Below, one piece after another: positions 7,173-33,684 of a stretch of 60,444 nucleotides of DNA; the first letter of the stretch is position 1; every line of letters begins with the position of its first letter. Under the pieces are notes generated by a model, which saw only the letters and a program-made list of their open reading frames with translations, was not told the origin of the DNA and searched no databases. Origin of the DNA: Spartinivicinus poritis (GTDB lineage Bacteria > Pseudomonadota > Gammaproteobacteria > Pseudomonadales > Zooshikellaceae); the NCBI RefSeq assembly GCF_028858535.1, contig NZ_JAPMOU010000034.1, positions 1 to 60,444 of the forward strand, read 5' to 3'. The translations under genes were made by a program, and so were the position numbers.

Positions 7173-7174
7173 CA

Positions 7175-9996: not shown

Positions 9997-10033
9997 GAAG
10001 AAAAAATACTTAAAAAATTTTATTCCAAATCAA

Positions 10034-10082
10034 ACTCCTTCTCTACCGTGCAAAAGTTGGGAAATAGGGAGAGAAGGTTAGG
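10034..10082. repeat. REP-like inverted repeat
   Basis: CTCCTTCTCT and GGGAGAGAAGG flank a short spacer, followed by TTAGGATGTGGGG. This resembles the widespread intergenic element built on 'ccttctcccc...gggagaagg' seen in many proteobacteria. A cleaner copy of the stem lies at 54921-54950. It sits between the phosphopantetheinyl transferase and pdxJ genes. Confidence 0.4.
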
Positions 10083-10169
10083 ATGTGGGGACTAAAAAAC
10101 TAATACCACCCGCCTGTAAAAGTGAATAAACTGGCTTTGATAATGTTGAGCGAGAAAAAACCACTACAG

Positions 10170-10898
10170 TTATCGAACAATCTGCATGTATTGCTTAATA
10201 ACATTAGTAAACCCTTGGTCAATAGATTCAACTATCAACGCATGGCCAATAGATACTTCTTTAATATTAGGAATGGTTAAAAAAGCAGCCAGGTTTTGTA
10301 GATCCAAATCATGACCTGCATTGACGTCTAACCCAATAGATGTCGCATACTCAGCAGCTTGCTTATACTGTTCTAATACTGATGTATAATTATTTGACTG
10401 AAATGCACTAGCATAGGCTTCTGTATACAGTTCTATCCGATCTGCTCCAACCTGCTTTGCAAGCTCAATTTGCTCGATAACCGGGTCCATAAACAAACTG
10501 ACCCGAATCCCTGCTGCCTTAAGCTGCTCAACAATAGGCGCAACTTGTTTACTTTGAGTGATTAAATCCCAGCCATGATCAGACGTTAATTGATCAGGCT
10601 GATCTGGCACCAAAGTACACTGATCAGGTTTATTTTTCAGCACAACATCTAAAAAGTCTGAAACTGGGTTGCCTTCTATATTAAGCTCTTTACCTGAGAA
10701 TTCCTCAACAACAGCCTTAAGAGAAGTCACATCTTGATAGGTAGCATGACGCTGATCTGGGCGAGGGTGAATCGTTACCCCCCCAGCATCTGCCAGAAGG
10801 CACTCCCGCGCATAATGCTCAACTTGCGGATAGTTACGCCCTCTTGAATTTCTTAACAGAGCAATCTTATTTAAATTAACACTTAACACTGTTGCCAT
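10170..10898 (-). CDS. pdxJ: pyridoxine 5'-phosphate synthase, Bacteroidetes-type
   Basis: About 242 aa TIM-barrel enzyme that condenses 1-deoxyxylulose 5-phosphate with 3-amino-2-oxopropyl phosphate to make pyridoxine 5'-phosphate. VNLNKIALLRNSRG, TIHPRPDQRHATYQDV, SLFMDP and DVNAGHDLDLQN are family motifs. Instead of the E. coli VNIDHIATLRNARG, this copy has NK for DH and carries IEGNP and SDHGWDL, features I associate with the Bacteroidetes branch. The ATG at 10898 has GAGGG eight bases upstream; the open frame extends seven codons further. It is not next to recO, acpS or rnc as classical gammaproteobacterial pdxJ is. Confidence 0.88.
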   Translation of the reverse strand: MATVLSVNLNKIALLRNSRGRNYPQVEHYARECLLADAGGVTIHPRPDQRHATYQDVTSLKAVVEEFSGKELNIEGNPVSDFLDVVLKNKPDQCTLVPDQPDQLTSDHGWDLITQSKQVAPIVEQLKAAGIRVSLFMDPVIEQIELAKQVGADRIELYTEAYASAFQSNNYTSVLEQYKQAAEYATSIGLDVNAGHDLDLQNLAAFLTIPNIKEVSIGHALIVESIDQGFTNVIKQYMQIVR

Positions 10899-11103
10899 TA
10901 GACTATCCCTCAAGGCCATGCACTTAGAAGCACTCGAATACTAACTTGAAGTTTTACCCTGATTTTATTGTAAAGCCCCACATAAAACGGCTATACCTGC
11001 ACTTTACACCTTACCAGACAGCTACTTTAGTTAAAAATCAAGCTATTTCATTAGATGATTTTGAATGGCTAATACCATAAATAGAGTATAAGCTGTTTAA
11101 CAA

Positions 11104-11502
11104 TCAATCATCTGTAAACACATGTTCAAGCAGCTGAGATCGGATATTATCATCAATTAGCACTGAACGCTTAGTTTGGTAGTCATACTGCACTAAGGTC
11201 GTATTTCCTTGTGCGACTCGTTGCTGGCGTTGATATGCACGTTGAGCAACAACAAAAGAAGAATTGCCTACTTTATGTACTCCAGTATAAATTTCAACCT
11301 CCTCACCATATGTAATTTCGGCTAAAAATTGCACATCAAAGCCAGCTAGTATTAAACGCCACTTGGTTGGATCCAAATCAGGGGTAAAAAGCTTGAACAG
11401 CGGTTCCCTAGCCTTTTCGAACCACATAGGCACCACTGTATTATTAATATGCCCAAGCGCGTCCGTTTCATAAAAGCCTGGTGTAATTATTTGTTTAAAC
11501 AT
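11104..11502 (-). CDS. hotdog-fold acyl-CoA thioesterase (4HBT/YbgC-like)
   Basis: 132 aa single hotdog domain. The motif YETDALGHINNTVVPMWFEKARE carries the Asp and the following helix that define 4-hydroxybenzoyl-CoA/YbgC-like thioesterases. The following strands (VQFLAEITYGEEVEIYTGV) fit the fold. It probably hydrolyses a short or aromatic acyl-CoA; the substrate cannot be read from the sequence. It is a single gene with no functionally linked neighbour, and its length is normal for the family. Confidence 0.82.
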   Translation of the reverse strand: MFKQIITPGFYETDALGHINNTVVPMWFEKAREPLFKLFTPDLDPTKWRLILAGFDVQFLAEITYGEEVEIYTGVHKVGNSSFVVAQRAYQRQQRVAQGNTTLVQYDYQTKRSVLIDDNIRSQLLEHVFTDD

Positions 11503-11618
11503 AAAATGACAACCTTTGGTACATACAACCTTTCTATCTATTAAAGAACAACACTAATAGTGTTTTTATAATACAAGCAGGCTATCCTGATCAAGCACTT
11601 AAAGACTGTGCTCCCTAA

Positions 11619-12455
11619 TCATGGTGTGTTGTGTTGCTTATAATAGTCCATTGCTTCATCAACCCATTGTTTTACCAATCTAGTATTTCTAACCTTTATT
11701 ATTTCTTGGTTAATTTGGGGTAGTAATGATACATAAGGCGATTTTTTTGAAATAGTTATATAGAACTTCTCATTAACCACATTTTTTTTAAGCTTGACAA
11801 TTTTTCCATGGTAACCATGCTTATGAATTTCTATTAAACCAGGATATAAACCATATAAAAAATAGTCCACTCTGCCATGCTCTAGTTTCCTAAAGTGATT
11901 TATATATTTATACTCACGATCAACAGTAAGATTTTCTTTTATATATTGGTCAAATTTTTCACCATAACTTTCCCCCAAATGCGTGGTACCATGCTTACCT
12001 ATTAAATCACTCCATTTATCATACTTAAACTGTTTATCATGCCATACAAATAAAGCTACAGGGTCTTCCATAAACCACTCACTATATAATAAATAGCTTT
12101 GCCGTTCATCATTTAAGTAAGCAGCTGCAATAATATCTATATTTCCGTTCATAGCATTCTTATGCACCCTTTTCCAGGGCCCTACATGAATCGCGTCATG
12201 CGCCACCCCTATTTTTTTAAAGACATAATCCACTACTTTAAAAGCAACACCAACCATTTTGTCATCTTGTAACCACATGATAGGAGGGTAGGAAGGATGA
12301 GCAGAAACTTTAACAACATCATTGTCTGCAGCAAAAGTAAAATTGCAATAACAACCAACTATGCAACCAAAGATATAAACAGCACGATAAAGTATCAGAC
12401 CTTTTAGTCGATTTTTTAAATAATTTTTACCCACTATAAAGCTAGATATCAACAT
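11619..12455 (-). CDS. periplasmic solute-binding protein, SBP_bac_3-like
   Basis: 278 aa. A hydrophobic segment (LILYRAVYIFGCIVGCYCNF, ending FAAD) serves as a signal peptide after an unusually long N-terminus, so a start downstream of 12455 is possible. The mature domain has SAHPSYPPIMW, then GPWKRVHKNAMNGNIDIIAAAY, matching the amino-acid-type binding fold. No transporter genes adjoin it. It is more diverged from the other copies in this window than they are from one another. Confidence 0.75.
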   Translation of the reverse strand: MLISSFIVGKNYLKNRLKGLILYRAVYIFGCIVGCYCNFTFAADNDVVKVSAHPSYPPIMWLQDDKMVGVAFKVVDYVFKKIGVAHDAIHVGPWKRVHKNAMNGNIDIIAAAYLNDERQSYLLYSEWFMEDPVALFVWHDKQFKYDKWSDLIGKHGTTHLGESYGEKFDQYIKENLTVDREYKYINHFRKLEHGRVDYFLYGLYPGLIEIHKHGYHGKIVKLKKNVVNEKFYITISKKSPYVSLLPQINQEIIKVRNTRLVKQWVDEAMDYYKQHNTP

Positions 12456-19476: not shown

Positions 19477-22400
19477 TTAGTCAGCCACTTCAATTCTAGT
19501 TACCCCAAAATCTTCAAGGATTGAATACAAAGCAGGTAACACAATCAACACCAACACTGTTGAAGCAATAAGGCCAAAAGTGATGCTAGCAACCAGTGGT
19601 ATTAAAATTTTAGCTTGAAAACTAGTTTCAAACAGTAATGGCAACATCCCCATCACTGTTGTTAATGAGGTGAGAAAAATTGCCCTGAATCGATCTCGTG
19701 TAGCCTGGCTTGCTGCATCATGAACAGTCATCCCTTCCCTCACTCGTAGTTTAACAAATTCCACTAATAAAATGGAGTTATTGATAACAATACCAGCTAA
19801 AGAAACAAACCCCATTATACTTGGCATAGTCAGATCGAGACCTAAAAAATAATGCCCCCAAATAACGCCTATTAATGAAAGTGGAATTGCCACCAGTACA
19901 ATAATGGGTTCAATATAGTTTCTAAATTGCAAACTTAATAAAAAGAAAATACCTGCAATCCCTACTAAGAAAGCTTTGGCAAATGAATCTCCTGTTGTTT
20001 TATTGTTTTTGCTTTCCCCCTCAATCATCAGTTTAACTTCTGGATATTGTTTTGCTAATTTAGGGAAAAGCTTTCGCTGAGTATCCATAATCACTTCAGC
20101 AACATTAGCCACATCTGGCTCAATTTCACCATACACAGTTACAGTGCGTATGTTATTCAACCGATTGATTCTCGCATAAGAGCGGGTTTGCTCAATATTA
20201 GCGATAGCAGCTAAAGGTATTGCTTGCTTGGTTTGTGGGTGAATAATTGTCATATAATCAAAGTCAGTTAAAGTATTTTTTGACTCATCAGCAAGCATGA
20301 CTTTTATTTCATAGGTTTCATTCTGGTACTGTATTTCATCTACCTTTATTCCTTGATAAGCTGCTCGTAACTGTTGTGATAAGTCTTGAGCATTAATCCC
20401 TATTCCTAGCACTCCTTCCTGTAAGTTAACTGAAAATTCTGGCTTACCTGGCCTTAAATCATCTGCAACATCAACAACACCAGGATATCCTCGTAACCAG
20501 TGTTGTAATGCATTAGATACTATCGATAACTCTTCCAGACTATCGCCTTGGAGACGGATTTTTATTGGTCGCCCTGCTGGGCCACGAGAAGGCTCTTTAT
20601 ACTGCAGTGATATAATATCAGGTATATTTCCTACTTTTTCTCGCCATGTACGGGCAAACGTGGTGATATTGGTATTTCGTATTTCAGCAGATAATAGATC
20701 GACACTGACTGTGGCTATATGTGTACCCGACTCATACGCTTCTGAGTTTTTATTAAAATCAACTCTCACATTACGTACCAATGATTCATTTTCGTTAGCA
20801 CTTAACTCAATGCTTGTTGCTTTCAGTCCCTTGATTACCTGCTCTACAACATTTTCCGTTTTTGCAAGAGGTGTTCCCTGAGGTAATAAAATAAGTGCCT
20901 GAATCATGTCTCCATCAATGTCAGGAAATCCTTTAAACTTAACTACACCTGCTGGTATCAAACTAATGGTTAAAAATAAAATAGCAAAAGCTAAACCAAC
21001 AAATGCATAACGAAACTTAACCGATAAATCTGCTAGCTGCCCAACTTTTTCTCGAAGCTTTTCAAATATATCAGCAAACTTCTGGCGCCACCCTAAAGTA
21101 TCTTTTTGGTTATTTTGTTGTCTATCTAATGACTGTTTTAGATGATGGGGTAAAATTAAAAAAGCTTCAATCAAACTAACAGTAAGAACCGAAATCAATA
21201 CTATAGGCAATACCTTGAGAACCTGTCCAATATCCCCCTTTAAAAACAGTAGCCCACCAAAAATAAGGATAGTAGTAACAAACGATGACAAGATACCCTT
21301 TGCAACCCGACCTACACCTGCAACTGCAGCATCTAATGGAGATAAACCTTTTTTATACTCCGTAGCAATACTTTCTGAGATAACAATAGCATCATCCATT
21401 AATATACCAATGGCAATTAACATGCCTACCATCGAAATCATATTAATAGACACACCAAATGCAGATATCACCATAAAGCTAGCCATGAATGAAACTGGTA
21501 GCCCCATGGCAACCCAAAAGGTATAACGAACACTAAAAAATAAAAATAATGCCAATATAACTAAGATAATACCTTGCCAGCTATTGGTAATGAGTAGCTG
21601 TAAGCGATCTTTAACAATAGAGGTAGAGTCTTCAGTAAGATACAACTGAACACCTTCTGGTAACTTAGCATTTTCTGTTTCAACAAACTGAGTAACTGCA
21701 TCTAGTATTTTCAGGCTATCATCAGCCTTATTTTTACTTATCTTAATAATCGCAGCAGGCTTGCCATTAAAAATAATTTTATCTTCTTTATTTTCAAATG
21801 TATCCGTGACTTTAGCAATATCTCCCAGTCTAACTTCCCCACCCTGTTCACCTGAAATAATTACTAGTTCTTCTAGCTGATCTGGCGTTCTTCTTAGATC
21901 CACAAATTTTATTTGATGGCTACCATATTCCGTTTTCAGCTCACCCGTTGGTAAGTCAAGCGCTTGAGATTTGATGATATCTGCCAGGTTATTTACACTT
22001 AAGCCATACTTTTGCAAGTTATAATCTTCAACTTCTACTTTTAACAACCTGTCAGAGAAGCCTTGAATATCGACAATAGGAATATTAGGCTGTTGCAGTA
22101 ACTTATTTTTATAATATTCAGCAAGATACTTAAGCTCTGTACTAGAGACCTCTGCACTAACAGCAATACTAATCACTTGACTCGTTAAATTTAACTCTTG
22201 AACAACTGGGTCTTCTGCATCCTCTGGAAAGCTGTCAATACCATCAACTGCTCGATTAATATCATCAATAAACTGGAGCATATCTCCCTGCTCCTGCATT
22301 TTTAAAGTCATTATCCCCGTGCTGTTTTTTGCCTCGCAGCTTTTTTCTTCCATATAATTGATGCCATCGGTTGCATCTTCCAACGGTTGGCATATGCCTT

Positions 22401-22575
22401 CTTCCACATCACTCGCACTGGCTCCAGGATATGCTACTGATACTTCAACTTGATACTTCTCAATTACTGGAAACGTTTCTTTTTTCATACTGGGTATCGC
22501 CACCATACCAAGCAATAAAAACACCCACATCAATACATTAGCTGCGGTAGGATGGCTAGCAAAATACCGTATCAT
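19477..22575 (-). CDS. RND efflux permease (second locus)
   Basis: 1032 aa RND permease. It opens with FASHPTAANVLMWVFLLLG (TM1), then KKETFPVIEKYQVEVSVAYP. The TM4 acidic pair is in GILMDDAIVISESIA, and TM10 has GIVINNSILLVEFVK, so proton coupling residues appear intact. It differs clearly from the pump at 14449 and resembles the AcrB-like branch found with HlyD-type adaptors in marine bacteria. Its ATG overlaps the stop of the adaptor gene by four bases (ATGA), indicating translational coupling. The substrate is unknown. Confidence 0.9.
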   Translation of the reverse strand: MIRYFASHPTAANVLMWVFLLLGMVAIPSMKKETFPVIEKYQVEVSVAYPGASASDVEEGICQPLEDATDGINYMEEKSCEAKNSTGIMTLKMQEQGDMLQFIDDINRAVDGIDSFPEDAEDPVVQELNLTSQVISIAVSAEVSSTELKYLAEYYKNKLLQQPNIPIVDIQGFSDRLLKVEVEDYNLQKYGLSVNNLADIIKSQALDLPTGELKTEYGSHQIKFVDLRRTPDQLEELVIISGEQGGEVRLGDIAKVTDTFENKEDKIIFNGKPAAIIKISKNKADDSLKILDAVTQFVETENAKLPEGVQLYLTEDSTSIVKDRLQLLITNSWQGIILVILALFLFFSVRYTFWVAMGLPVSFMASFMVISAFGVSINMISMVGMLIAIGILMDDAIVISESIATEYKKGLSPLDAAVAGVGRVAKGILSSFVTTILIFGGLLFLKGDIGQVLKVLPIVLISVLTVSLIEAFLILPHHLKQSLDRQQNNQKDTLGWRQKFADIFEKLREKVGQLADLSVKFRYAFVGLAFAILFLTISLIPAGVVKFKGFPDIDGDMIQALILLPQGTPLAKTENVVEQVIKGLKATSIELSANENESLVRNVRVDFNKNSEAYESGTHIATVSVDLLSAEIRNTNITTFARTWREKVGNIPDIISLQYKEPSRGPAGRPIKIRLQGDSLEELSIVSNALQHWLRGYPGVVDVADDLRPGKPEFSVNLQEGVLGIGINAQDLSQQLRAAYQGIKVDEIQYQNETYEIKVMLADESKNTLTDFDYMTIIHPQTKQAIPLAAIANIEQTRSYARINRLNNIRTVTVYGEIEPDVANVAEVIMDTQRKLFPKLAKQYPEVKLMIEGESKNNKTTGDSFAKAFLVGIAGIFFLLSLQFRNYIEPIIVLVAIPLSLIGVIWGHYFLGLDLTMPSIMGFVSLAGIVINNSILLVEFVKLRVREGMTVHDAASQATRDRFRAIFLTSLTTVMGMLPLLFETSFQAKILIPLVASITFGLIASTVLVLIVLPALYSILEDFGVTRIEVAD

Positions 22576-23939
22576 TTAAAGTCTCCTTTACCACTTGCTA
22601 ATAACTTAATGGTCTCTTGGAGCTTTTCATTATGTGCCAAATTCAGCTGCATTCCCGCCACTGCTGGAATCACATCACTTGTTACCAACCTATCACCTGG
22701 TTTCACCCCTTCGGCAATCGCCACTAGTTCACCTTGAAAAAATTCAATTTTTACCGGCTTTATTTGCAAAGTGTTATCTTTACTAGCAATATAAGCTTTC
22801 CCTTGGTGAATAGCTTGCCGGGGTATCACTATTCGCTGTTGCGCCGCTGACTGAAACTCAACCTCTGTATACATTCCTTTTAACAACGGTGGTCGCTCAC
22901 CTGGAATCCCTTTTTCATAACTACTATCTATTGCCACAATAAAAGATACTGTACGACTGGTTTGATCTATCTCTTCACCAAGGCGTACTGCCTTTGCTTT
23001 CCAACTGGCTTTTTTTAAAGTACCAACCAGTCGTACTGTGACATCAAGATTAAGAGCTTGTAAAAGCTTTTGGGGAGACGGAGGCTCCCTGGTTAGAATT
23101 GAGCGATCTACACCAAGCACTAATGCCCTGGCGTGTTTCATGGGTAATTGGGCATGAATTTCAACACGACCAATATTACTAGCATCAAACAACTTTGCTC
23201 CAGCATTAACATATTCATCTAAGTCAATATGAACTTCCCCAATGCGCCCTTTAAATGGCATTGTAATTGTTGTACGCTCCAGGTTTTTTTGCTGTTCTTT
23301 CAATTGTGCGCTAGCCTGCATAATTTGAGCTTCAATCACAGCTCGGCGGCTGGGCAAAGTAGTTAAGGTGTTTTGTAAGCTTTGGAACTGCTCTTGTAAT
23401 GCGAGGACCTTTTGCTCTTCCATGTCTACCGTTGACTGGGACACTGATTGCTGTTTATGCAGCTGCTTTTTACGCTCAAGTTCACTTTTACCTATTTCAT
23501 AGTTACGCTTGGCAATTTCAAGCAGGATTTGGGTATTTTGCTTCTCAACTTCCAGCTCTTTTAAATTAGCTTGATAGACAGCCAGGTTTGCCTGTGCCTG
23601 GCTGATTGCTAGTTCATAGTCAGTAGTATCAATCTGAAGTACTTTTACCCCTTTATTGATACTACCTCCTTTCTTTAAATCAGGATGGACATATACAACT
23701 TTACCTGCTACTTGAGCATTAGCTGCTAACGTAGTTTCTGGTTGAACAGTACCATAGCCTATTGCTCTTGCTTTAAGCGGTACCTCCTGAACATCAATAT
23801 ACCAAACCTTACGAGTTACTTTTGCTTGCTCAGCACGGGCAATTTCAGTCTTTTGCTTAATAGCCAAAGCTGCCAAGATAAATCCAGCAATAGCAATAAG
23901 AGGCAAGCTAAACCTGCTCTCCAACCATTTAGTCAGCAT
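22572..23939 (-). CDS. RND periplasmic adaptor, HlyD family (second locus)
   Basis: 455 aa with one N-terminal membrane anchor (LPLIAIAGFILAALAI) and no lipobox, unlike the other adaptor at 13270. Residues about 120-240 form a long helical hairpin (LERKKQLHKQQSVSQSTVDM). It is flanked by the split lipoyl domain (ANAQVAGKVVYVHPDLKKGG and TITMPFKGRIGEVHIDLDEY). First gene of a two-gene operon with the permease. No outer-membrane partner is present. Confidence 0.88.
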   Translation of the reverse strand: MLTKWLESRFSLPLIAIAGFILAALAIKQKTEIARAEQAKVTRKVWYIDVQEVPLKARAIGYGTVQPETTLAANAQVAGKVVYVHPDLKKGGSINKGVKVLQIDTTDYELAISQAQANLAVYQANLKELEVEKQNTQILLEIAKRNYEIGKSELERKKQLHKQQSVSQSTVDMEEQKVLALQEQFQSLQNTLTTLPSRRAVIEAQIMQASAQLKEQQKNLERTTITMPFKGRIGEVHIDLDEYVNAGAKLFDASNIGRVEIHAQLPMKHARALVLGVDRSILTREPPSPQKLLQALNLDVTVRLVGTLKKASWKAKAVRLGEEIDQTSRTVSFIVAIDSSYEKGIPGERPPLLKGMYTEVEFQSAAQQRIVIPRQAIHQGKAYIASKDNTLQIKPVKIEFFQGELVAIAEGVKPGDRLVTSDVIPAVAGMQLNLAHNEKLQETIKLLASGKGDFK

Positions 23940-24264
23940 TTACTTACTCCAATAAATTCATTCCATATCCAATGGAAAAAGCACCTGCAACGTAATATAG
24001 TTAATACTTCATGAAAACCCTAGGGGAACTTATCCACATACTGGTAACATGAGTTAAAATTTTCTTACAGATAGAATATGAAATGAAAAAAGCCCATTCA
24101 CTAAATATAGATCGCAGCCGATCAGTGAATGGGCTAAGGGACTCAAGAAACGAAACTTCACTAAACCTCACAAGTAAGTGATTATGTTAGTTAAAATAAT
24201 ACAGTTTCAATCGAATTTACGTAAAATTTACATTCATTTAATCAGTAAAGTGTATATGTAAATA
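23940..24264. other. intergenic gap with terminator
   Basis: About 325 bases between two minus-strand operons. It contains the terminator of the oxidase operon (24086-24135) and should hold the promoter of the efflux operon. No ORF of note. Confidence 0.5.
24086..24135 (-). terminator. Rho-independent terminator of oxidase operon
   Basis: Perfect 12-bp stem, AGCCCATTCACT (24091-24102) with AGTGAATGGGCT (24124-24135). An inner GATC...GATC stem sits in the loop, and an A-run on the plus strand gives a U-tract on the minus-strand transcript. It lies 130 bases past the last oxidase gene. Confidence 0.75.
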
Positions 24265-25791
24265 TCAAGCTTTATCTGTCACAGAAAACTGGCCTATTTT
24301 ACTGACACCGCTTTGTTCTAAAGAGTGACAATAATACAAATAGGGAACATGGTGCTTTAAGCTCATGGGATAAATTCGCGCCTGAAAACGATTAACACCT
24401 TGACGATAAGTGTAAAAATAAAACTTGATCAGTATTTTTATTTTTTTAATATGGGTTTTGCTGTCTAAACTCCCACCAAAAGTCAGTGTGTCTCGCCACC
24501 CACTATAGTCAGCTCCAGGCTCTTGTCCATTAATACTAATTATTAAAAATGACCCACCATATACATGAAAAGAGTAAACGCCTGACAATGATATTTCCCA
24601 AATTTCGTCTTCTTCTCGTATTGAATTGTCTTCAATTTTCTCAGCAGCGAATAGCGTATTATTTTTAAGTTGCTCACTATCTAGACTATTTGATTGTATA
24701 GTTATCTGCTTCTTAATTGGAAGTAAGTTAGCTAATGCATAATTAACTGCTAGTTTACTTGATCTTAGCTGATTTGGTAGCACAGTTTCAGTACATGCAA
24801 TATCTTCAACTGTTATTTTAAGAGCAACCATTGAAAAACTAGTGTCTACTTTATCCATGGCCAGCATAGCAATATTACTTTGCTTTTCTTTCAAAAAAAC
24901 CATAATTTCACAACGTTCTTCAGGAGCAAGTGTTACCGTTGTCATTGCTATAGGTTTATTTAATAGTCCTCCATCAGAAGCAATTTTATAAAATATCGTT
25001 TTCTCAGAAAATGAGAGCTCAAAGATACGGCTATTAGATGCATTTAATAATCTAAGTCGAACCCAACCAGGAGCAACTGATATATAAGGACTTACTGTTC
25101 CATTTACTACTAATGTATTTCCCTGAAACGACTTATTAGATGAACGATTGTAGACTAGTTGGCCATTAGCATTGAAACTTTTGTCTTGAAAAATAAGCGG
25201 TATATCATCAAGGCCATAAGTGGTTGGCAAATTTAAGGTATTGCTATTATCATCTTCGATAATAATCATACCCGCATATCCTGAGTAAAGTTGTTTTGAT
25301 CCTACACCATAATTTAGAGGATGGTACCAACAAGTTGCCGCTTCTTGCTGAATATGCATGGTAACCTGCCAACTTTCTCCTGGCTCTATTAGTTGATGTG
25401 GACTGCCATCAACATGGCTGGGAATATGTAGACCATGCCAGTGGTTCATGGTAGCTTCATTAGTTTGGTTCTTGACAGTGATACCAGCAACATCACCTCG
25501 TTTAAACTTAATCGTAGGGCCTAAATAACTAACTACTTGCTCACTAGTTGACAGCCCAATTGCTTTTGAAGCTTGATTAGAAAAAAAATGATGAAAAGTA
25601 TTCTTAATTAATATATCTGGAAACTGATAAAAATCAGTCAATGGTTCATATAGTAATGGTGGAATAAATAGTAAGTTATCATTACTCGTAATTTCATATT
25701 GATCATCTCTATTTTTTTGTCGACTACACGCGTAGAAAGCACTTAATAACCCTATACTTGAAGCAACAGTGAAAAACTGCCGTCGATCCAT
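24265..25791 (-). CDS. multicopper oxidase paralogue with degenerate copper sites
   Basis: 508 aa, three cupredoxin domains, with a Tat-like N-terminus (MDRRQFFTVASS). Motif 1 is intact (NHWHGLHIP). The others are eroded against the neighbour at 25850: WYHSH becomes WYHPL, HPFHVHG becomes YSFHVYG, and HCHFLEH...M becomes YCHSLEQ without the Met. About five of ten copper-binding His are lost, including both type-1 His and three type-3 His, although the type-1 Cys remains. The frame is intact and well preserved, which suggests retained function without laccase chemistry, such as a structural or binding partner. GGAAG precedes the start. Confidence 0.85.
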   Translation of the reverse strand: MDRRQFFTVASSIGLLSAFYACSRQKNRDDQYEITSNDNLLFIPPLLYEPLTDFYQFPDILIKNTFHHFFSNQASKAIGLSTSEQVVSYLGPTIKFKRGDVAGITVKNQTNEATMNHWHGLHIPSHVDGSPHQLIEPGESWQVTMHIQQEAATCWYHPLNYGVGSKQLYSGYAGMIIIEDDNSNTLNLPTTYGLDDIPLIFQDKSFNANGQLVYNRSSNKSFQGNTLVVNGTVSPYISVAPGWVRLRLLNASNSRIFELSFSEKTIFYKIASDGGLLNKPIAMTTVTLAPEERCEIMVFLKEKQSNIAMLAMDKVDTSFSMVALKITVEDIACTETVLPNQLRSSKLAVNYALANLLPIKKQITIQSNSLDSEQLKNNTLFAAEKIEDNSIREEDEIWEISLSGVYSFHVYGGSFLIISINGQEPGADYSGWRDTLTFGGSLDSKTHIKKIKILIKFYFYTYRQGVNRFQARIYPMSLKHHVPYLYYCHSLEQSGVSKIGQFSVTDKA

Positions 25792-25849
25792 TTCACTTCC
25801 TCATACAGTGCTTGTTTTTATTTTTCTTACAAAAGCAAGCACGATTATT

Positions 25850-27424
25850 TCATTTATCATGATAAACTGTAAACTGCCCCATCATTCCCTTATCCTCATG
25901 CTCTAAAAAATGACAATGGTACATATAAGGCATATGATTAGCTAATATCTTAGCAGCCTCTTTACCCTTAACAGGATTCTTAGGATTACGGTATGTTGGG
26001 TAACTAAATTTTATCAAAATTTTTGCAGAGAATACCTGGCCAGGGTCTGGTGGTGTACCTGGTGATAAATCCGGTGGAGTATGATGTACTACATCTTTCC
26101 AACTGCGATATTCCATACCAGGAGGCTTACCATTAATCGATAAAATTAAAAATGAGCAGCCATGAACATGAAACGGGTGAGGACCACTAGTAGAAGTAAT
26201 TTCCCAAACCTCATAAGTATCGATGGGAATTGCATGGTTAATGACTCGCATATCAAATAGCTTATCATTAATGTAATGCTCAGACATATCTGCACTTGCA
26301 CTCAAATTAAACTTCCTGGTTACCGCTGGAGCATTAGCTGCAGCTGTTTCCCAATCAATGAGTTCACTCCTTAACTGTTCCGGTAAAGTTGTAGGTGGGC
26401 CAGGTATAGTACTTGTTACCAGACACAAAAGTTCAAACTCTTCTTCATATTGTAAATCAATGATTGTCTTAGCATAAAAGTTACTGATTATACCTGGCTC
26501 ATCAGTAAAATTAACCATAATTTCAAATCGTTCTCCAGGAGCTATTAGTAAACTCTCTTTTTTAACTGGCTGATTTAAAAACCCTCCATCTGAAGCGATA
26601 ATCCAAAATGGACGCTCATCTAAAAAGAAAATTTCAAAATCTCTACCGTTTGAGGCATTAAGAATTCGGAGCCTTACCCATCCAGGAGGTACGATACTAT
26701 ACGCATTCATTGTACCATTGACTAAATACTTATCACCGAGGAACACTGGCTTCCCTCTTGTGTCATATATTTGCTGACCAGTATCATCAATTATTTTATC
26801 CTGAAAGATAATAGGAATATCATTAACTCCATAAATATCTGGCAAGCCAAGTGATTTTGCATGCTCATCTTCAATAATAAACATACCAGCGTGCCCCATG
26901 TATACTTGTTCAGCTGTTTTTTCACAAGTATGTGAATGATACCAGCTTGTCGACGCCTCTTGATTTATATGCATCGTTGTGTTCAATTTTTCACCTGCAT
27001 TAATGACTTGATGAGGCCCTCCATCAATATAACCCGGTATATGCAGGCCATGCCAGTGATTGGTCACTTCCTCTTGACGGAGGTTATACATTTCAAAATC
27101 AACAACATCACCTCTTTTTACCTTTATAGTTGGGCCTAAATAGGAGCTCTGACTGTATAATGTAGAAATACCTACAGCACTTGAAGGTTTACCAGAATAA
27201 AACTCATATAGTGTATCCTGTACATACATAGGAGGAACTTTATAACGTCTAGCATATGGGTTTTCAAGCAATGGAGGAATATTCAGTCGATTATAATCAC
27301 TTATCGCTTTTAATTGGTTTGCTTTGAGAGACTCAGCTGGGCTAAATAGATTTACAGCAGCAACTCCTGCTGATGCAGCAGTCAATCCAAAACTTAGTCC
27401 TTTGACAAAAGTACGGCGTCTCAT
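25850..27424 (-). CDS. multicopper oxidase, Tat-exported, laccase/CotA-like
   Basis: 524 aa. A Tat signal (RRRTFVKGLSFG) would export it folded. All four copper motifs are present: NHWHGLHIPG, SWYHSHT, HPFHVHG and MYHCHFLEHEDKGMMG, giving a complete type-1 centre with Met axial ligand and a trinuclear centre. It could oxidise phenolics, bilirubin-like compounds or metal ions (Cu+, Mn2+, Fe2+); the sequence does not say which. It is the first gene of an operon with the degenerate paralogue 58 bases downstream. It is divergent from the YHYH operon across 614 bases. Confidence 0.9.
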   Translation of the reverse strand: MRRRTFVKGLSFGLTAASAGVAAVNLFSPAESLKANQLKAISDYNRLNIPPLLENPYARRYKVPPMYVQDTLYEFYSGKPSSAVGISTLYSQSSYLGPTIKVKRGDVVDFEMYNLRQEEVTNHWHGLHIPGYIDGGPHQVINAGEKLNTTMHINQEASTSWYHSHTCEKTAEQVYMGHAGMFIIEDEHAKSLGLPDIYGVNDIPIIFQDKIIDDTGQQIYDTRGKPVFLGDKYLVNGTMNAYSIVPPGWVRLRILNASNGRDFEIFFLDERPFWIIASDGGFLNQPVKKESLLIAPGERFEIMVNFTDEPGIISNFYAKTIIDLQYEEEFELLCLVTSTIPGPPTTLPEQLRSELIDWETAAANAPAVTRKFNLSASADMSEHYINDKLFDMRVINHAIPIDTYEVWEITSTSGPHPFHVHGCSFLILSINGKPPGMEYRSWKDVVHHTPPDLSPGTPPDPGQVFSAKILIKFSYPTYRNPKNPVKGKEAAKILANHMPYMYHCHFLEHEDKGMMGQFTVYHDK

Positions 27425-28038
27425 TTTTGTTGTCCTTAATAGTTTTTATATACATTATTTTTACTCTAAAGATTGTTTTTAGAGATATCCAATAAGCTAA
27501 CTTTCTCAATACTTATATAAGGAAAATACACTAATAGCAGGAATACAATAGCCCAGTTTAAAAACTAATATTTCTATAATTGTGAGACGTAAGGTAATGA
27601 CCTACTATTCCGTTATTATCTAATTGCCTTAATACAAGCTCTATGCCTTATAAAAGCAGCTTACTGATAAAACAAATAAATTTGAGTATTATTTTACACC
27701 TTATATTTATATTACTAGATATCAAACTACCACCAACTTAAAATTAATAGCAAATTAACCAGCCACCATCAACAGGCTTTACATTCACTCAATATTACCA
27801 ATATATTACAAGCATTTTACAGATAATAAACGGCTATTATAGTCAACTTTTTAGCACTATTTTGCTTTTATTCGTGAGCCCAACCAACAAGCTAGTGTAA
27901 ATCTTACGTAAAGATATTTGACTGATTTACACCCTCTTGTTATCAACTACACAATAAAACAGAAGATTTATATAGTATATTATCATGCAAAAAATCAAGC
28001 ATACTTTAAATATATAAAGTGGATAGAAGGAAATTCGC
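27425..28038. other. 614-bp divergent promoter region
   Basis: Very AT-rich gap between the oxidase operon (minus) and the YHYH operon (plus). AAGGA lies about eight bases before the ATG at 28039, and a TATATAAAG-like -10 candidate lies a little upstream. I could not find a clear operator, CueR- or CopR-type palindrome, or small gene. Confidence 0.4.
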
Positions 28039-29028
28039 ATGAACAACTTTTACAAGCTTCTAAGCATAGTTTTTATATCTAGCGGATTAACTGGCATTAG
28101 CAATGCTAAGCCTATAGCAAACACTTATACACCTCAATCAGTAGTTCTCAATCCCGCTTATTTCAATACAGAGCACTTCTTAAAAAATATCTCTTTAGTT
28201 AAGTGTACACTTGAAAATAATCAGGAAGCATTGTGCTTTGAACTTGCTGTGAAAAGTAACCCTATAAAAGATGGCCCTTATTGTCCCAAAACACTCAATG
28301 ATATAGGGGGCATTTATATTTATGATGGTAAAACTAACCCTGGTCTAAGAGTATTGAAAAGAGATCTTTTTGAAGATATGGAAAAAGATGGTTATGACAT
28401 TGTTGATGACCAAGGCAATATCCGATTTGCATTAGCAATACCTGGGCAACCCCCAAGTAATCCTGAGTATGCTTACTGTATTGAAGCAGAGCATGACTAC
28501 AACTTAAAATTAACTTATTATATCCCAGCATACCCAAGCTATGCTGCAGAGCCAACCCCAATGAGTAGTGCATCAAATATAGTTGGACTCTCATTGATTG
28601 GGCTACCCATTAATGGCTTACCCCCTTCGGTTGTAACAGGTCCTGATGGCCAGCGTGGTGGAAGTATTCCAGCATTAGATCCATGTGGTGGACACATAAA
28701 CGAAGGTTTCTATCACTCACATATATTTCCAGAAACAATCAATAACATATTTATAAAAAATCATATTTATGATGCTCAATGTCAAGGAGTTTATCAAAAG
28801 TTTGACTCTGAATTAATTGGTTACGCGATGGATGGTTTTCCTATTTATGGTAGTTTTGAGTTTACCGGCATGCCTCCTACTGACCTTGATGAGTGTAACG
28901 GACATGTCAGCCCTACTTTACACTATCCTTGGGGGGAGTATCATTATCATGCAGATATCGACTCTCCAGTAAACATACCAACCTGCCTAAAAGGTAATCT
29001 TGCTAAAGATCAATTGGTTATTGAATAA
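28039..29028 (+). CDS. YHYH-domain secreted protein
   Basis: 329 aa with a signal peptide (ends GISNAKP). The YHYH domain covers the C-terminal 150 residues: CGGHINEGFYHSHIFPE, then YAMDGFPIYG, DECNGHVSP and the name-giving EYHYHAD. Conserved His and Cys suggest a metal-binding or disulfide-stabilised periplasmic domain, but the biochemical role of YHYH proteins is not established. It shares long stretches with the second YHYH protein at 30074 (for example GYDIVDDQGNIR), so the two are duplicates. First gene of a four-gene plus-strand operon. Confidence 0.85.
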   Translation: MNNFYKLLSIVFISSGLTGISNAKPIANTYTPQSVVLNPAYFNTEHFLKNISLVKCTLENNQEALCFELAVKSNPIKDGPYCPKTLNDIGGIYIYDGKTNPGLRVLKRDLFEDMEKDGYDIVDDQGNIRFALAIPGQPPSNPEYAYCIEAEHDYNLKLTYYIPAYPSYAAEPTPMSSASNIVGLSLIGLPINGLPPSVVTGPDGQRGGSIPALDPCGGHINEGFYHSHIFPETINNIFIKNHIYDAQCQGVYQKFDSELIGYAMDGFPIYGSFEFTGMPPTDLDECNGHVSPTLHYPWGEYHYHADIDSPVNIPTCLKGNLAKDQLVIE

Positions 29029-29073
29029 TTTATACAACAGCAAAAACTATTGAAAACTAAAAGGAATTTAATA

Positions 29074-29424
29074 ATGTCAAAAAAAACAACTTACATAACA
29101 CTACTGTTTGCTTTATTATCAGCACACTCTTTAATAACAAATGCTTCCGGGAAAATTACAGGTATAAGTTTTTCCGGACCTGATGACGATATTCATTCTA
29201 ATCTTGTTCAGATACAAATTGAAGGTGGCTATAACTCACCAAATTGTGATACTACTCGTGCTGCCATACGCAATACAGAAGATAGACAGCATCTAATTAA
29301 ATTCGCTTTAACAGCTTTTAAAAATGAAACGCCTGTTGATATTGTACTAATGGAAGAAGATAAGTACTTTAGAGAACGATGCACTATTAAACGGATATCT
29401 ACCGTAAGACCACAAGCAAAGTAA
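29074..29424 (+). CDS. small secreted protein, unknown (DUF5992-like?)
   Basis: About 116 aa with a signal peptide (MSKKTTYITLLFALLSAHSL). The mature part is a small beta-rich domain with two Cys (PNCDT and RERCTI) that could form a disulfide. The pattern recalls DUF5992, but I hold that weakly. The ATG at 29074 has AAGGA upstream; a TTG at 29050 is in frame. It sits between the first YHYH gene and the HupE-like gene. Confidence 0.6.
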   Translation: MSKKTTYITLLFALLSAHSLITNASGKITGISFSGPDDDIHSNLVQIQIEGGYNSPNCDTTRAAIRNTEDRQHLIKFALTAFKNETPVDIVLMEEDKYFRERCTIKRISTVRPQAK

Positions 29425-29470
29425 TAAAAGTTTTTCAACAAACTCATTTTATATTTATAGTAACTTTCGT

Positions 29471-30049
29471 ATGAAAAGAATCATTATAGTATTATTAAGT
29501 AGTTTAATTTTTCTTCCTAATATAGGTTATAGTCACGAAATAGGCTTTGGTGGTGGTTTTGGTTCTGGCTTAACGCACCCAGTTCTTGGCTTTGATCATT
29601 TGTTAGCTATGTTGAGTGTAGGTATTTTAAGCGCTCAAATAGGAGGAACAGCTATTTGGGTAATTCCTTTAGCTTTTGTTAGCTTTATGCTCACTGGAGG
29701 AGTACTTGGTATAAAAGAGGTACCATTAATCTCTGTAGAGTTAGGCATAGCGTTTTCAGTACTTATTTTAGGTATTGTCCTTGCAGCTGACAAAAAAATT
29801 CCTTTTATAATAACAATGCTTTTTGTTGGCTTTTTTGCTATCTTTCATGGTCATGCCCATGGTACTGAAATGCCATTTTTAGCTGAACCCCAATTATATG
29901 CTTTAGGTTTTATAATAGGTACTGCTGGCATTCATATTATTGGAGTATTGATTGGCCTTAGTGCCACAAAAATAAAACATGGGCTCCAATTACTTCGCTA
30001 TATTGGAGCATCTATCGCAGGAATTGGCTTTCATCTTGTTATTTCTTAA
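29471..30049 (+). CDS. HupE/UreJ-family membrane protein
   Basis: 192 aa with a signal-like first helix and about six membrane segments. The opening HEIGFGGGFGSGLTHPVLGF, then DHLLAMLSVG, and later HGHAHGTEMP match HupE/UreJ proteins, which are linked to nickel or cobalt uptake next to hydrogenase or urease genes. Neither enzyme is present here; the neighbours are YHYH proteins and copper oxidases. A role in moving a metal ion across the membrane for them is possible. The conserved His-rich motifs are intact. Confidence 0.85.
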   Translation: MKRIIIVLLSSLIFLPNIGYSHEIGFGGGFGSGLTHPVLGFDHLLAMLSVGILSAQIGGTAIWVIPLAFVSFMLTGGVLGIKEVPLISVELGIAFSVLILGIVLAADKKIPFIITMLFVGFFAIFHGHAHGTEMPFLAEPQLYALGFIIGTAGIHIIGVLIGLSATKIKHGLQLLRYIGASIAGIGFHLVIS

Positions 30050-30073
30050 ACCTTATTACTTCTTAAGCACAAA

Positions 30074-31090
30074 GTGAGTATAACTTTGCCTTTTCAGAGT
30101 ACAAGTATAAAACCTATCTTCATGGGTTCTATCTTCTTAGGTTTATTGTTAGCTAACTCCTACTCTGCAAGTGCTGACAACTCATCACCTGCTATAAACA
30201 AGCACTTGCTTAGCTCAACTATAATCAACACTCCTTACATCAAGCAGGTCATCGTTATCCCATGTGTTCTAGAAAACGACAAACCCACTTTTTGTTACCA
30301 ACTCTCATTTAACAGTAATCCCATTGCAGATGGGCCTTACTGCCCCAAAACACTAGATGATACAGGAGGGTTATATAACTACGATGGCATAACAAACCCT
30401 GGCTTTCAGGTGCTTAAAAGAACATTTTTTGAATCTATGGAAAATGATGGATATGATATTGTAGATGACCAAGGCAATATCAGAATAAGTCCTCCTAAAA
30501 ATACTGGTAGTCAATTCAACTATTGTTTCGAAGCACAGCGAGATGATAGTTTAATCATTACTTATACTTTTCCCATCTTTCCCATTGATTTAGCAGTGCC
30601 ATCACCTAATAACACCGTGTTTGATATGGTCGGATTTACCTTAAACGGCATCCCTATTGAAGGCCCTGCACCTTCGGTCGTAAATGGAGCACCATTGCCA
30701 GATGGAGGTACTGGAGTAGCAGGTAATGTTCCAGCCATCGATCCATGTGGTGGACATGTGGACCCCTCCGGTTATTACCACTTTCATATGCAGCCTGAAA
30801 CAATAAACCATGTATTAAAGAATAATAATATTTATGATGTCTTTTGCTCCAATGTTACCCAAGATTCATATGCACTTCTTGGCTATGCAATGGATGGGTA
30901 TCCTCTTTATGCAGATAAAGACTTACCTGGTATGACACAAACTAAATATGATCAATGCAATGGACATTTTGGCCCTACTCTTGAATATCCTTTTGGTATT
31001 TATCACTATCATGCTTCTAATAAGTCAATTCCAAATACGCCACCTTGTTTAAAAGGTGCAACAGCAAAAAACTCTTTTTCTATTGAATAA
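30074..31090 (+). CDS. second YHYH-domain secreted protein
   Basis: 338 aa from a GTG start; the signal peptide ends near SYSASA. It is a paralogue of the protein at 28039 with the same order of motifs: CGGHVDPSGYYHFHMQPE, YAMDGYPLYAD, DQCNGHFGP and IYHYHAS. There are many shared segments in the N-terminal half (GPYCPKTLDDTGG). No strong Shine-Dalgarno is visible, and a start at the in-frame ATG 30122 is possible. Last gene of the operon, followed by a hairpin terminator. Confidence 0.85.
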   Translation: MSITLPFQSTSIKPIFMGSIFLGLLLANSYSASADNSSPAINKHLLSSTIINTPYIKQVIVIPCVLENDKPTFCYQLSFNSNPIADGPYCPKTLDDTGGLYNYDGITNPGFQVLKRTFFESMENDGYDIVDDQGNIRISPPKNTGSQFNYCFEAQRDDSLIITYTFPIFPIDLAVPSPNNTVFDMVGFTLNGIPIEGPAPSVVNGAPLPDGGTGVAGNVPAIDPCGGHVDPSGYYHFHMQPETINHVLKNNNIYDVFCSNVTQDSYALLGYAMDGYPLYADKDLPGMTQTKYDQCNGHFGPTLEYPFGIYHYHASNKSIPNTPPCLKGATAKNSFSIE

Positions 31091-31094
31091 AGTA

Positions 31095-31136
31095 AGGATA
31101 ACTCAACAGATGTTTACATTTCTATTGAGTTATCCT
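31095..31136. terminator. hairpin terminator after YHYH operon
   Basis: Perfect 12-bp inverted repeat, AGGATAACTCAA / TTGAGTTATCCT, with an 18-base loop, located four bases after the YHYH stop codon. It lies before the convergent gene ending at 31164. Probably acts in both directions. Confidence 0.7.
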
Positions 31137-31163
31137 ATTTAAGCTCATCAACTATCCAGATAA

Positions 31164-31733
31164 TTACTCACCTTCAATACCAACTGGTCTTTTAGAGAAA
31201 GTACCATCAGCCATACCTAAGTAAACTAATGTCTTAGGTGGATGTTTGGGTTTAGGCTTGGGATGAGGGTCTGCAGTTACATCATGGTCATCAGGTCTTG
31301 GCCGAGGCTTCTTCATAGGAGGCACAACTGTCACTATTTTATCAGCTCTTCCATCATTGGTTACATCAGCAAAGTTGAGGATTTTAGGTGCTTTCTTAGG
31401 CAGGTGCTTGTCACCGTGAAATACTCCTTTTTTACTAAATGTCCCATCGCCATAACCTAAAAAAGTGACTGAAACAGAGTGCCTAGGAGACCCCCAAGCA
31501 ACTTTATCAAGGCTACCATCACCATTCACATCGACAAATGCTTGTTGAGGTAAAGGTGGTGGTCTTTTTGGCTTTCTCTTTTTATCTTTAGGACCATTAG
31601 ACTGGTCAGAATCGTTGTATAAAGCCTGATCACCCACATACTGGTTATTAAGATTACTATTATCGGCAAATACAACACCAGCTATACATGATGATAAGAT
31701 TATCGCAAACGACTTTGTTAAAGTATCTTTCAT
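31164..31733 (-). CDS. secreted FG-GAP/VCBS-like repeat protein
   Basis: About 189 aa with a signal peptide (MKDTLTKSFAIILSSCIAGVVFA). It has two FG-GAP-like repeats, FVDVNGDGSLDKVAWG...FLGYGDGTFSKK and FADVTNDGRADKIVTV...YLGMADGTFSKR, each with a DxNxDG-type calcium site. Lysine/proline-rich linkers separate them. FG-GAP proteins usually form seven-bladed propellers; two repeats are too few for one, so it may oligomerise or be a reduced form. The ATG at 31733 has AGGA seven bases upstream. Next gene on this strand is the putative metallopeptidase. Confidence 0.72.
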   Translation of the reverse strand: MKDTLTKSFAIILSSCIAGVVFADNSNLNNQYVGDQALYNDSDQSNGPKDKKRKPKRPPPLPQQAFVDVNGDGSLDKVAWGSPRHSVSVTFLGYGDGTFSKKGVFHGDKHLPKKAPKILNFADVTNDGRADKIVTVVPPMKKPRPRPDDHDVTADPHPKPKPKHPPKTLVYLGMADGTFSKRPVGIEGE

Positions 31734-31856
31734 AATGTCATCCTTTACAAAAAATATCCATATAATATTTAAAGTTGTTTTATTACTACCCAAAAACTTC
31801 ATTTATAGCTATATTAGCTATAAAATTTATTTCTGAAAAAGAATGTTTTGATTTAC

Positions 31857-33143
31857 TTAAAATGGTGGCTCAAATGTGTCATCATCAGCCAAACAATTTT
31901 TATTCCCGCTCAACTGTACTGAATGACCAGTAATTTCTTCTATAGCTTTGATATTATTAGGCCTGTACAATAAGTCTAAAATTTCTTGATAATCTGTACC
32001 TAATATAGAAAAATTTTTTGCTAATTTGACATAGTAATGCAATCGAAGCCATTGAATCAAAATAAAGTCTCTGAAAAGCTTTTCTGATTTTATTTTATTA
32101 TAATAACTGAAGTGAGACTCTTTAGCTTGTCTCAAATAGAGTTGTAAATGATACATATAAGCCGCTGCACTATCCATAGCATTACTTGCACCATATCCTT
32201 CTACATATTCACCCACAACAGCTACACCAACTAACCCTGTCAGCCCTGCATTAAGTTCACTTAACACACCTTGCATTAAGTAACTGCCCTGGGTTCGATC
32301 GCGCAAATATAGATCATCCCATGGTTTCGTCACATTTGATTCTAATAAAGGAATAATTTCTCTACGTGGAAAACCACCATGAATAGGCACTTTCGGTTGC
32401 CAAAATCGGTTAACATATGCAGTTAATTTTTGTTCCCACTCTGTTCGGCTAGAATCAAGATCATACATATGAGTTTCTTCATGAATAGCAACCATTAAAG
32501 ATTCAGCCATTTTATTAAAGCTTGTTTTATTTACAAACTGAGAAAAATAAGGGTCGTTGGCTTGGGCTTTCACTAATTTAGCCCCGCTTTGCCAACGCCT
32601 TTCGTAAACGGATATAATAGTTTGCAACCAATTGTATCGATTAAATTTCTTTTTTAAATCAGTAATATCAACACCACCATTAATAACCTCTTCATAGCAA
32701 TATCCAGAGGTTCTAATTATAGGTATTTTTTTATTTGTATACTTACTTTGCATATTTATAAAATGAGCATTATGGTTAGCACTTTCAATTTTTAAATAGT
32801 ACAAACCTTTATCAGATATTGTGACTAAACAAATACTTTTATCATTACTAATTGCATATGAAGTACACTTTAGCTCATAGTCATCTTTCTCTTTGCTCAT
32901 AACTACATTAAAATTTTTGCTTTGCCCCACAAATGATAGGCTAGTCATGTTATAAGGTACTATCAGTCTATATATCTTATTTACTTTTACTCTTTTGAAG
33001 TCATTTAATAAATAAGCACTCTCTGAAAGAGTAATGGTATTATCTTTTTTTATATCTATCAATGATGATATTGCCTGACTACTAGACAAGACAAAGACAG
33101 CAAGCAGCACCACTTGCTGCGCTCTATTATATATTATTTTCAT
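31857..33143 (-). CDS. putative secreted zinc metallopeptidase (HEETH)
   Basis: 428 aa with a signal peptide (VVLLAVFVLSSSQAIS). Residues about 30-135 look like a beta-rich prepeptidase-type domain. Residues 150-430 are helical and hold AIHEETHMYDLD, an HExxH zinc motif (His221, Glu222, His225). A third ligand might be a Glu in VVGEYVEGYG, about 85 residues later. I do not recognise the family. It lies upstream of the FG-GAP-like gene on the same strand, beyond a 120-base gap. Confidence 0.6.
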   Translation of the reverse strand: MKIIYNRAQQVVLLAVFVLSSSQAISSLIDIKKDNTITLSESAYLLNDFKRVKVNKIYRLIVPYNMTSLSFVGQSKNFNVVMSKEKDDYELKCTSYAISNDKSICLVTISDKGLYYLKIESANHNAHFINMQSKYTNKKIPIIRTSGYCYEEVINGGVDITDLKKKFNRYNWLQTIISVYERRWQSGAKLVKAQANDPYFSQFVNKTSFNKMAESLMVAIHEETHMYDLDSSRTEWEQKLTAYVNRFWQPKVPIHGGFPRREIIPLLESNVTKPWDDLYLRDRTQGSYLMQGVLSELNAGLTGLVGVAVVGEYVEGYGASNAMDSAAAYMYHLQLYLRQAKESHFSYYNKIKSEKLFRDFILIQWLRLHYYVKLAKNFSILGTDYQEILDLLYRPNNIKAIEEITGHSVQLSGNKNCLADDDTFEPPF

Positions 33144-33684
33144 TGCAAATTATTCCTTTAAATCGAGTTCATTTCCTTATTCGGCCAATATGGATTATAG
33201 AAAACAAACAACACAAAGCGGAATCAGCAATAGCACATTTTTACTGTAAGCACTAATAATCTTAATTCAATTTTTTTACATAGAGGCATCTTCGAGAATT
33301 GAAATATAGTTATTTACCAATTATCAGAAAAGAAAATTTACACTAATTTACAATTAAGACCACAAATAAAACAACGCAATATTCGTACTCAACCATAGTC
33401 ATTAAATAATATATATTTTATGAAGACCTATACTTATAGATTCACGATATCCAGCCATAGTATGTATACAATAAAAAATACCTTTACTTAAGTTAGAGAA
33501 TTTTAGACATGTTTATTGCCTATACAATGTTTGTATATCCAATGTGAATAGGTTTCAGGACAAGCCAGTAGGTGAAAAGTTTTAATATCAGATTTATAGA
33601 AAGGATATCTACTGAAAAACTATCATTTTTAATGTTTAATGCTAGATTAATAAAGTAGTCTACCAAGCATTTCAGAGCAGTAAA
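33144..33684. other. 541-bp AT-rich gap
   Basis: Separates divergent genes at 33143 (minus) and 33685 (plus). No ORF, repeat or strong hairpin recognised; it presumably carries both promoters. Confidence 0.35.

Follow-up and report, generated by a model that had tools for sequence, protein, structure and literature searches.

What do exported proteins of the YHYH family do in the bacterial envelope, and what place do two of them have beside a metal permease and multicopper oxidases (MCOs)? YHYH proteins form a widespread family with no tested function in the literature searched, in which no paper treats HupE together with YHYH, PF14240 is met in diatom work alone, and "YHYH" as a whole word belongs mostly, judging by titles, to other subjects. 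The only functional idea found there is a phage-based hydrolase prediction, given in the available part of its source (PMC7824862). The window studied here, by which the whole 60,444-nucleotide stretch is meant, is contig C34 of the 6.83 Mb genome of Spartinivicinus poritis (G000). Open reading frames were called mechanically, and comparisons were made within a set of five Zooshikellaceae genomes, namely G000, its congeners G001 and G002, and two Zooshikella genomes (G003 and G004). With a probability of roughly one half (0.48), we read YHYH proteins as partners of proteins that capture metal through an N-terminal histidine (N-His), tied in this genome to a HupE permease, to the oxidases, and to envelope stress.

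Organization and conservation of the gene block

Read from the right, the block begins on the minus strand with a gene for a secreted protein (31857..33143) that has an HEETH (HExxH) motif in its sequence and no Pfam family, followed after 54 bp on the same strand by the gene of a secreted FG-GAP-like protein (31164..31802; FG-GAP_3, 36.8 bits), which is syntenic. Next comes a plus-strand run, with intergenic gaps of 24-72 bp, that encodes the exported protein YHYH-A (28039..29028), a small exported protein with two cysteines and no Pfam family (29074..29424), a HupE/UreJ-type permease (29471..30049), and the exported protein YHYH-B (30122..31090). On the minus strand again lie MCO2 (25850..27424), MCO1 (24265..25791), a HlyD/RND periplasmic adaptor (22572..23939; TIGR01730, 122 bits against a cut-off of 94.9), and an RND efflux permease (19477..22575). 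The permease is syntenic in G001 and G002 and is of the multidrug type by score, since NCBIfam RND_permease_2 (467 bits) outscores the CusA/CzcA model TIGR00914 (232 bits), both values being below the cut-offs.

All genes named in a preliminary description of this DNA are present where it placed them and match their families by Pfam, among them the FG-GAP-like gene, the HupE/UreJ-like membrane protein (PF04955, 173.4 bits against a cut-off of 23), and the YHYH pair, in which YHYH-A (63.5 bits) and YHYH-B (70.6 bits) both pass the PF14240 cut-off of 25 bits and carry the YHYH motif. The small protein had been called a disulfide protein; its sequence does contain two cysteines, and the disulfide itself would be an extrapolation from them. 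The start codon of its gene is more likely the ATG at 29074, and that of YHYH-B more likely the ATG at 30122 than the GTG at 30074 that opens the reading frame.

In G001, the entire block is found from the RND pump to beyond the HEETH gene, with the order kept and protein identities of 76-95% (90% for the small protein). G002 retains the flanks, the HEETH and FG-GAP-like genes, YHYH-B, and MCO1 together with two other MCO genes, three in all, and is without YHYH-A, the small protein, and HupE at the block. The dN/dS values against G001 are 0.03 for YHYH-A, 0.14 for YHYH-B, 0.13 for HupE, 0.07 for MCO2, and 0.21 for MCO1, so that all five genes are constrained.

The YHYH proteins and a possible hydrolase role

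In the family tree, YHYH-A and YHYH-B fall into two deep clades, A and B. The two are paralogous, as had been described, and they are not a recent pair; a recent tandem duplication is ruled out by the tree. A third YHYH gene of G000, on contig C8, adjoins neither HupE nor an MCO. Among 79 YHYH proteins, the residues D188, H193, H201, H203, D239, D258, and H276 (numbered by the first row of the alignment) are invariant. A search by sequence for solved structures returned nothing convincing for YHYH (best E 0.62).

These residues, together with a His/Asp zinc site predicted for YHYH in phage tail proteins in the accessible text of one study (PMC7824862), suggest that YHYH proteins bind metal. 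The same study reads the site as that of a hydrolase, and a report on pelagimyophages, as far as its text was available, places the family in a receptor-binding or carbohydrate context (PMC7029224). Accordingly read, YHYH proteins could be metal-dependent envelope hydrolases with substrates such as peptidoglycan or glycans, and the whole block would be a general Cpx-type envelope-repair set that involves no metal trafficking. The CpxR-type boxes described below, the RND pump, and the resemblance of HEETH to a zinc-protease motif, as judged from sequence, would suit such a set. We nevertheless hold it to be unlikely, though by no means negligible, because HupE belongs to a metal permease family and because the recurrent neighbors of YHYH genes are N-His proteins, whose families are shown, in the part of the source available, to be metal-binding and to lack substantial enzyme activity (PMC12537917).

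N-terminal-histidine proteins as neighbors of YHYH

YHYH loci were sought across 84,980 species genomes; of the 111 relatives obtained, the best 79 loci, many of them related to one another, were kept. By clustering, a DUF6702-like protein is encoded in 46 of these best 79 loci. Among the 74 loci whose YHYH reading frame has at least 250 residues, 42 have the DUF6702-like gene directly 3' of YHYH on the same strand, at a distance of -30 to 150 bp, and such YHYH-DUF pairs are often repeated in Flavobacteriia. Most of the DUF6702-like proteins have the residues AH right after the signal peptide. At E ≤ 0.01, the Pfam DUF6702 model recognizes 11 of the 32 members that were aligned, and the member from G002 passes its cut-off (25.4 against 24 bits). 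Other neighbors with an N-terminal histidine are small cysteine proteins of 84-98 residues (loci L107, L112, L115, L116, and L202), and a HupE/UreJ-2 fusion is encoded directly 3' of YHYH on the same strand at five loci (L117, L118, L119, L200, and L201). A SCO1-like cluster is represented in 11/79 loci, with one member checked by Pfam (79 bits).

After removal of the duplicate loci L044, L045, L046, and L053, the genes directly 3' of YHYH encode N-His proteins in 66 of 103 cases, compared to 19 of 669 other adjacent genes, as called by a crude signal-peptide script that wrongly flagged the small protein of locus L042 and missed true cases. Counted by genus-level groups with the same crude script, the 3' gene is of the N-His kind in 38 of the 45 groups that have an adjacent gene versus 8 of 516 other adjacent pairs; in 13 of the 58 groups, no gene adjoins YHYH on its 3' side. 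Six of the 45 groups are archaeal, and their neighbors are of other kinds, none of them N-His. The YHYH genes on C8 and in Zooshikella likewise have no N-His partner adjoining.

DUF6702 is treated in a single paper of the literature searched (PMC12537917), which, in the text accessible to us, reports that DUF6702 binds nickel at 5.6 pM, cobalt at 3.6 nM, and copper at 3.3 nM, and that Ang-1 binds copper at 74 nM and nickel at 220 nM, with metal capture as the proposed role. DUF6702 is named there a "metal sequesterase" and the Ang-1/Ang-2-HupE/UreJ-2 proteins "anglerases"; YHYH is not mentioned in the main text as available. The proteins described here resemble these in being exported, in the N-terminal histidine, and in the link to HupE/UreJ. 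They differ in two respects from that partly available account (PMC12537917): the HupE of the window, a PF04955 permease, stands alone with no Ang domain attached, and DUF6702 as a partner is encoded outside the window, on contig C13. Pfam detects neither DUF6702 nor Ang domains within the operon of the window, and the mature N terminus of its small protein does not look like that of an N-His protein. YHYH is a candidate partner that can be added to the recently described N-terminal-histidine metal proteins, and since its stable neighbor in the genome has metal affinities measured in the picomolar to nanomolar range, the family can be assayed directly.

The congeners offer a further view of this partnership. 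In G002, a YHYH-DUF6702 operon precedes ackA-pta, and its YHYH protein is 69% identical to YHYH-A. At the ackA-pta locus of G000 and G001, DUF6702 is kept and YHYH is absent, YHYH-A being found instead beside HupE. Since YHYH-A and the YHYH of G002 belong to one clade of the tree and are not resolved as sisters, a relocation or exchange is suggested, not proved, by these sequences.

HupE apart from hydrogenase and urease

The signal of HupE itself is predicted to be cleaved at YS|HEIG, so that the mature protein would start with histidine. It contains both HX5DH and FHGX[AV]HGXE, which we take to be the HupE metal motifs and which are found in 18/18 and 13/18, respectively, of the sequences compared. 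HupE/UreJ proteins are secondary nickel/cobalt transporters according to the portions of two papers available (PMC4284471; PMC2667541), and the protein of the window is predicted to be one as well.

It had been stated that hydrogenase and urease, the usual company of HupE/UreJ, are absent. For urease this is true of all five family genomes. Hydrogenase is missing from the window but not from the genome: contig C2 of G000 encodes a [NiFe] hydrogenase, which has L1/L2 motifs, together with hyp genes, so that HupE, on C34, stands outside any hydrogenase or urease cluster. HupE might then supply nickel to the cell's own hydrogenase, as the transport activity of the family would allow, and its place between two YHYH genes would be incidental. 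This we regard as very improbable, given that G002, G003, and G004 have the hydrogenase but no such HupE (G002 has a weak match only, and the two Zooshikella genomes none) and that HupE/UreJ-2 adjoins YHYH in unrelated bacteria too.

An oxidase and a conserved pseudo-oxidase

Both MCOs have Cu-oxidase domains and Tat-type export signals, in agreement with the preliminary description, which had counted two multicopper oxidases; that both are working enzymes is not supported by their copper ligands. In MCO2, the type 1 and trinuclear ligands are intact at 12/12 positions checked (10 His, Cys, and Met), and its best match by sequence among solved structures is a CueO (6evg, E 6e-77). In MCO1, a protein of 508 residues, half of these ligands are gone (6/12 kept). 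It belongs to a clade of its own in the MCO tree, to which every one of the five family genomes contributes a single member, and the members of this clade keep 5 or 6 of the 12 ligand positions, compared to 12/12 in the eight other members of the tree. MCO1 is, on this pattern, a conserved and predictably non-catalytic paralogue, a pseudo-oxidase under purifying selection that accompanies true oxidases throughout a single bacterial family.

FtsP/SufI is a copper-free member of the copper-oxidase fold. Of the two well-described Escherichia coli proteins, MCO2 scores CueO-like, and MCO1 resembles FtsP/SufI in having the fold with ligands lost, so that FtsP/SufI would be its nearest precedent by analogy. 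Both MCOs differ from them in falling below the NCBIfam cut-offs of either (361 and 309 against 525 bits for CueO, NF008205; 291 and 255 against 581 bits for FtsP/SufI, NF008135). Another comparison is the cutFOG copper operon of Rhodobacter, which, in the available part of its description, comprises CutF, the MCO CutO, and the chaperone CutG (PMC9973294). The likeness consists in a Tat-exported MCO with small exported partners; the window differs from that account (PMC9973294) in that no CutF-like gene was recognized in it, the small protein having no Pfam match, and in that its partners are YHYH and HupE.

The co-occurrence of YHYH and MCO genes is retained in G001 and partly in G002, but their direct adjacency is confined to this genus among the loci searched, and the MCO model matched two same-genus loci only of 117. 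The MCO - pseudo-MCO - MCO series of the two Zooshikella genomes is directly preceded, in each of them, by a DUF6702-like gene. DUF6702 thus stands beside YHYH in G002 and beside MCOs in Zooshikella, and links to both, in different genomes.

CpxR-type promoter boxes

A conserved stretch first came to light when the region between YHYH and MCO2 was aligned for two species, and the same sequence was found before HlyD. It corresponds to a CpxR-type box, GTAAA-N6-GTAAA, at 27897..27912 (plus strand) in the divergent YHYH/MCO2 promoter region, followed after 5 bp by TTGACT, and at 24216..24231 (minus strand) before HlyD-RND, followed after 5 bp by TTGAAA-18-CATAAT. A GTAAA-N5-GTAAA form is located at 33337..33351 (minus strand), 194 bp before the HEETH gene. 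In G000 and G001, the box of both the YHYH and the HlyD promoter is followed after 5 bp by a TTGAnn hexamer; in G002, this holds for the HlyD promoter.

The box occurs in 9/9 regions (the YHYH/MCO, HlyD-RND, and HEETH promoters of three congeners), a count in which the pattern was chosen after one conserved site had been seen and in which, the three species being related, the independent units are the three promoters. GTAAA with its complement is the only 5-mer of 1024 found in 9/9, the others reaching at most 6/9, and of 60 approximate shuffles 56 gave 0/9 regions and four gave 1/9. Allowing one mismatch, the 16-base box is found at two places in G000, both in this block and both exact, versus one match for a control with the pattern read backwards. 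The DUF6702 unit elsewhere in the genome is also preceded by a CpxR-type box. Over nine further stretches of the three congeners, a box lies within 300 bp upstream of 12 of 93 genes, and all 12 belong to the set: two HEETH, three YHYH, three MCO, two HlyD, and two DUF6702 genes.

The sequence and spacing of the box are those of promoters in the Cpx envelope-stress regulon (GTAAA-N5-6-GTAAA) as presented in the part of a paper available (PMC9600279), whose reference list also contains titles that connect CpxR with copper. CpxR may therefore regulate the boxed units, as their promoter sequences suggest. A general link between YHYH and CpxR was considered and rejected, boxes being present in 5/161 YHYH upstream regions and 17/1220 others. 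There is no such box before the YHYH gene on C8, nor before YHYH or the oxidases in the two Zooshikella genomes, where these genes lie on different contigs; within the genus Spartinivicinus, they share both locus and boxes.

The separation in Zooshikella, the confinement of the MCO matches to one genus, and the losses from the block in G002 are what would be expected if neighborhood and boxes were a local assembly, a genomic island of one genus in which oxidases and YHYH have no joint function. This is rather doubtful, as each of three species has boxes at the three promoters and a distant DUF6702 unit has one too, and as DUF6702 is connected with YHYH and with MCOs in separate genomes. The two halves of the block had earlier been joined by position only; adjacency holds, and the shared boxes in three species and the DUF6702-like N-His protein are two further links.

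A proposed metal-handling set in the envelope

Under the partner reading, the block would serve to handle metal outside the cytoplasm, as a set of parts that have CpxR-type promoter boxes in common. The N-His partner would catch a transition metal by the histidine at its mature N terminus, and YHYH, as an exported metal-site protein, would be its loading factor, chaperone, or receiver, and metal may pass between the two. The usual partner would be DUF6702-like and, in some bacteria, a HupE/UreJ-2 fusion. In G000, YHYH-A and YHYH-B would flank HupE as an N-His permease, and the DUF6702-like protein would act from its separate locus under its own box. MCO2 may oxidize copper or another periplasmic substrate, and MCO1 may have a structural or binding role, as FtsP/SufI does. 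Metal handling thus remains the best reading of what had been described as an envelope system for metal oxidation or acquisition, without the two working oxidases and the argument from an absent hydrogenase that had accompanied it.

The metal would be copper or nickel, with no firm choice between them. The oxidases speak for copper, as do SCO1 in Flavobacteriia and the presence in G000 of a HupE/UreJ-2 gene near CusA and a Cu-oxidase gene; the HupE family and the DUF6702 affinities speak for nickel. Envelope handling of either metal has a bearing on the cycling of metals in the sea. More broadly, and more tentatively, there may be a modular YHYH metal-capture system in Bacteroidota, Pseudomonadota, and probably Myxococcota, in which YHYH loads or unloads interchangeable N-His partners (DUF6702-like proteins, Ang-HupE/UreJ-2, HupE, and small cysteine proteins) and which, in this genus, Cpx-type boxes wire to MCOs, a conserved pseudo-oxidase, and a new small RNA. 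Taken as a whole, this wider picture is possible, and we would wager against it rather than for it.

A candidate small RNA

The RNA in question is a candidate small RNA or leader at 24086..24174 on the minus strand (folding energy -29.3 kcal/mol, z -3.67), behind MCO1, where the box at 24231-24216 and the TTGAAA-18-CATAAT sequence are followed by a terminator-like hairpin and a run of T. It is equally possible that the element combines a terminator of the MCO unit with a leader of the pump operon. Rfam has no match at gathering anywhere in the window, which includes the region ahead of HupE, where a riboswitch had been considered; a sub-threshold snoRNA match near the candidate (E 0.016) was taken as chance. 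The element is kept in three species, and in two of its 20 pairs both sides have changed with the pairing retained.

Between the gene of the pseudo-oxidase MCO1 and the RND adaptor gene HlyD, the minus strand of the window carries a candidate small RNA or leader (24086-24231), possibly driven by a CpxR-type box. The element is kept in three species and includes the unchanging stretch TTCTTGAGTCCCTT.

A CpxR-type box also lies upstream of a DUF6702-like gene at the ackA-pta locus of the source genome (L220, G000:C13:6000-21000; 7030-7653), which has no YHYH neighbour there. In Zooshikella (L236, G003:C112; L237, G004:C13), a DUF6702-like gene directly adjoins the oxidases, in the order DUF6702-like, MCO, pseudo-MCO, MCO.

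Elsewhere in the source genome, a HupE/UreJ-2 gene whose product has a histidine following the signal peptide (L222, G000:C2:270000-289000) is found near a CusA-type pump, with a Cu-oxidase gene about 10 kb off, and a HupE/UreJ-2 fusion-like gene (L221, G000:C30:36000-51000; 6733-7938) is immediately followed by type IV pilin-like genes. The genome also encodes a [NiFe] hydrogenase with CxxC motifs, together with hyp-like genes (L225, G000:C2:192000-206000; 5899-12119).

At five other loci (L107, L112, L115, L116 and L202), small exported proteins with an N-terminal histidine and conserved cysteines are encoded directly 3' of YHYH, none of the three scanned having an above-cut-off Pfam match. 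In Zooshikella (L062, L097), the YHYH gene has downstream of it genes for a response regulator and a histidine kinase, along with an operon encoding an RND pump.
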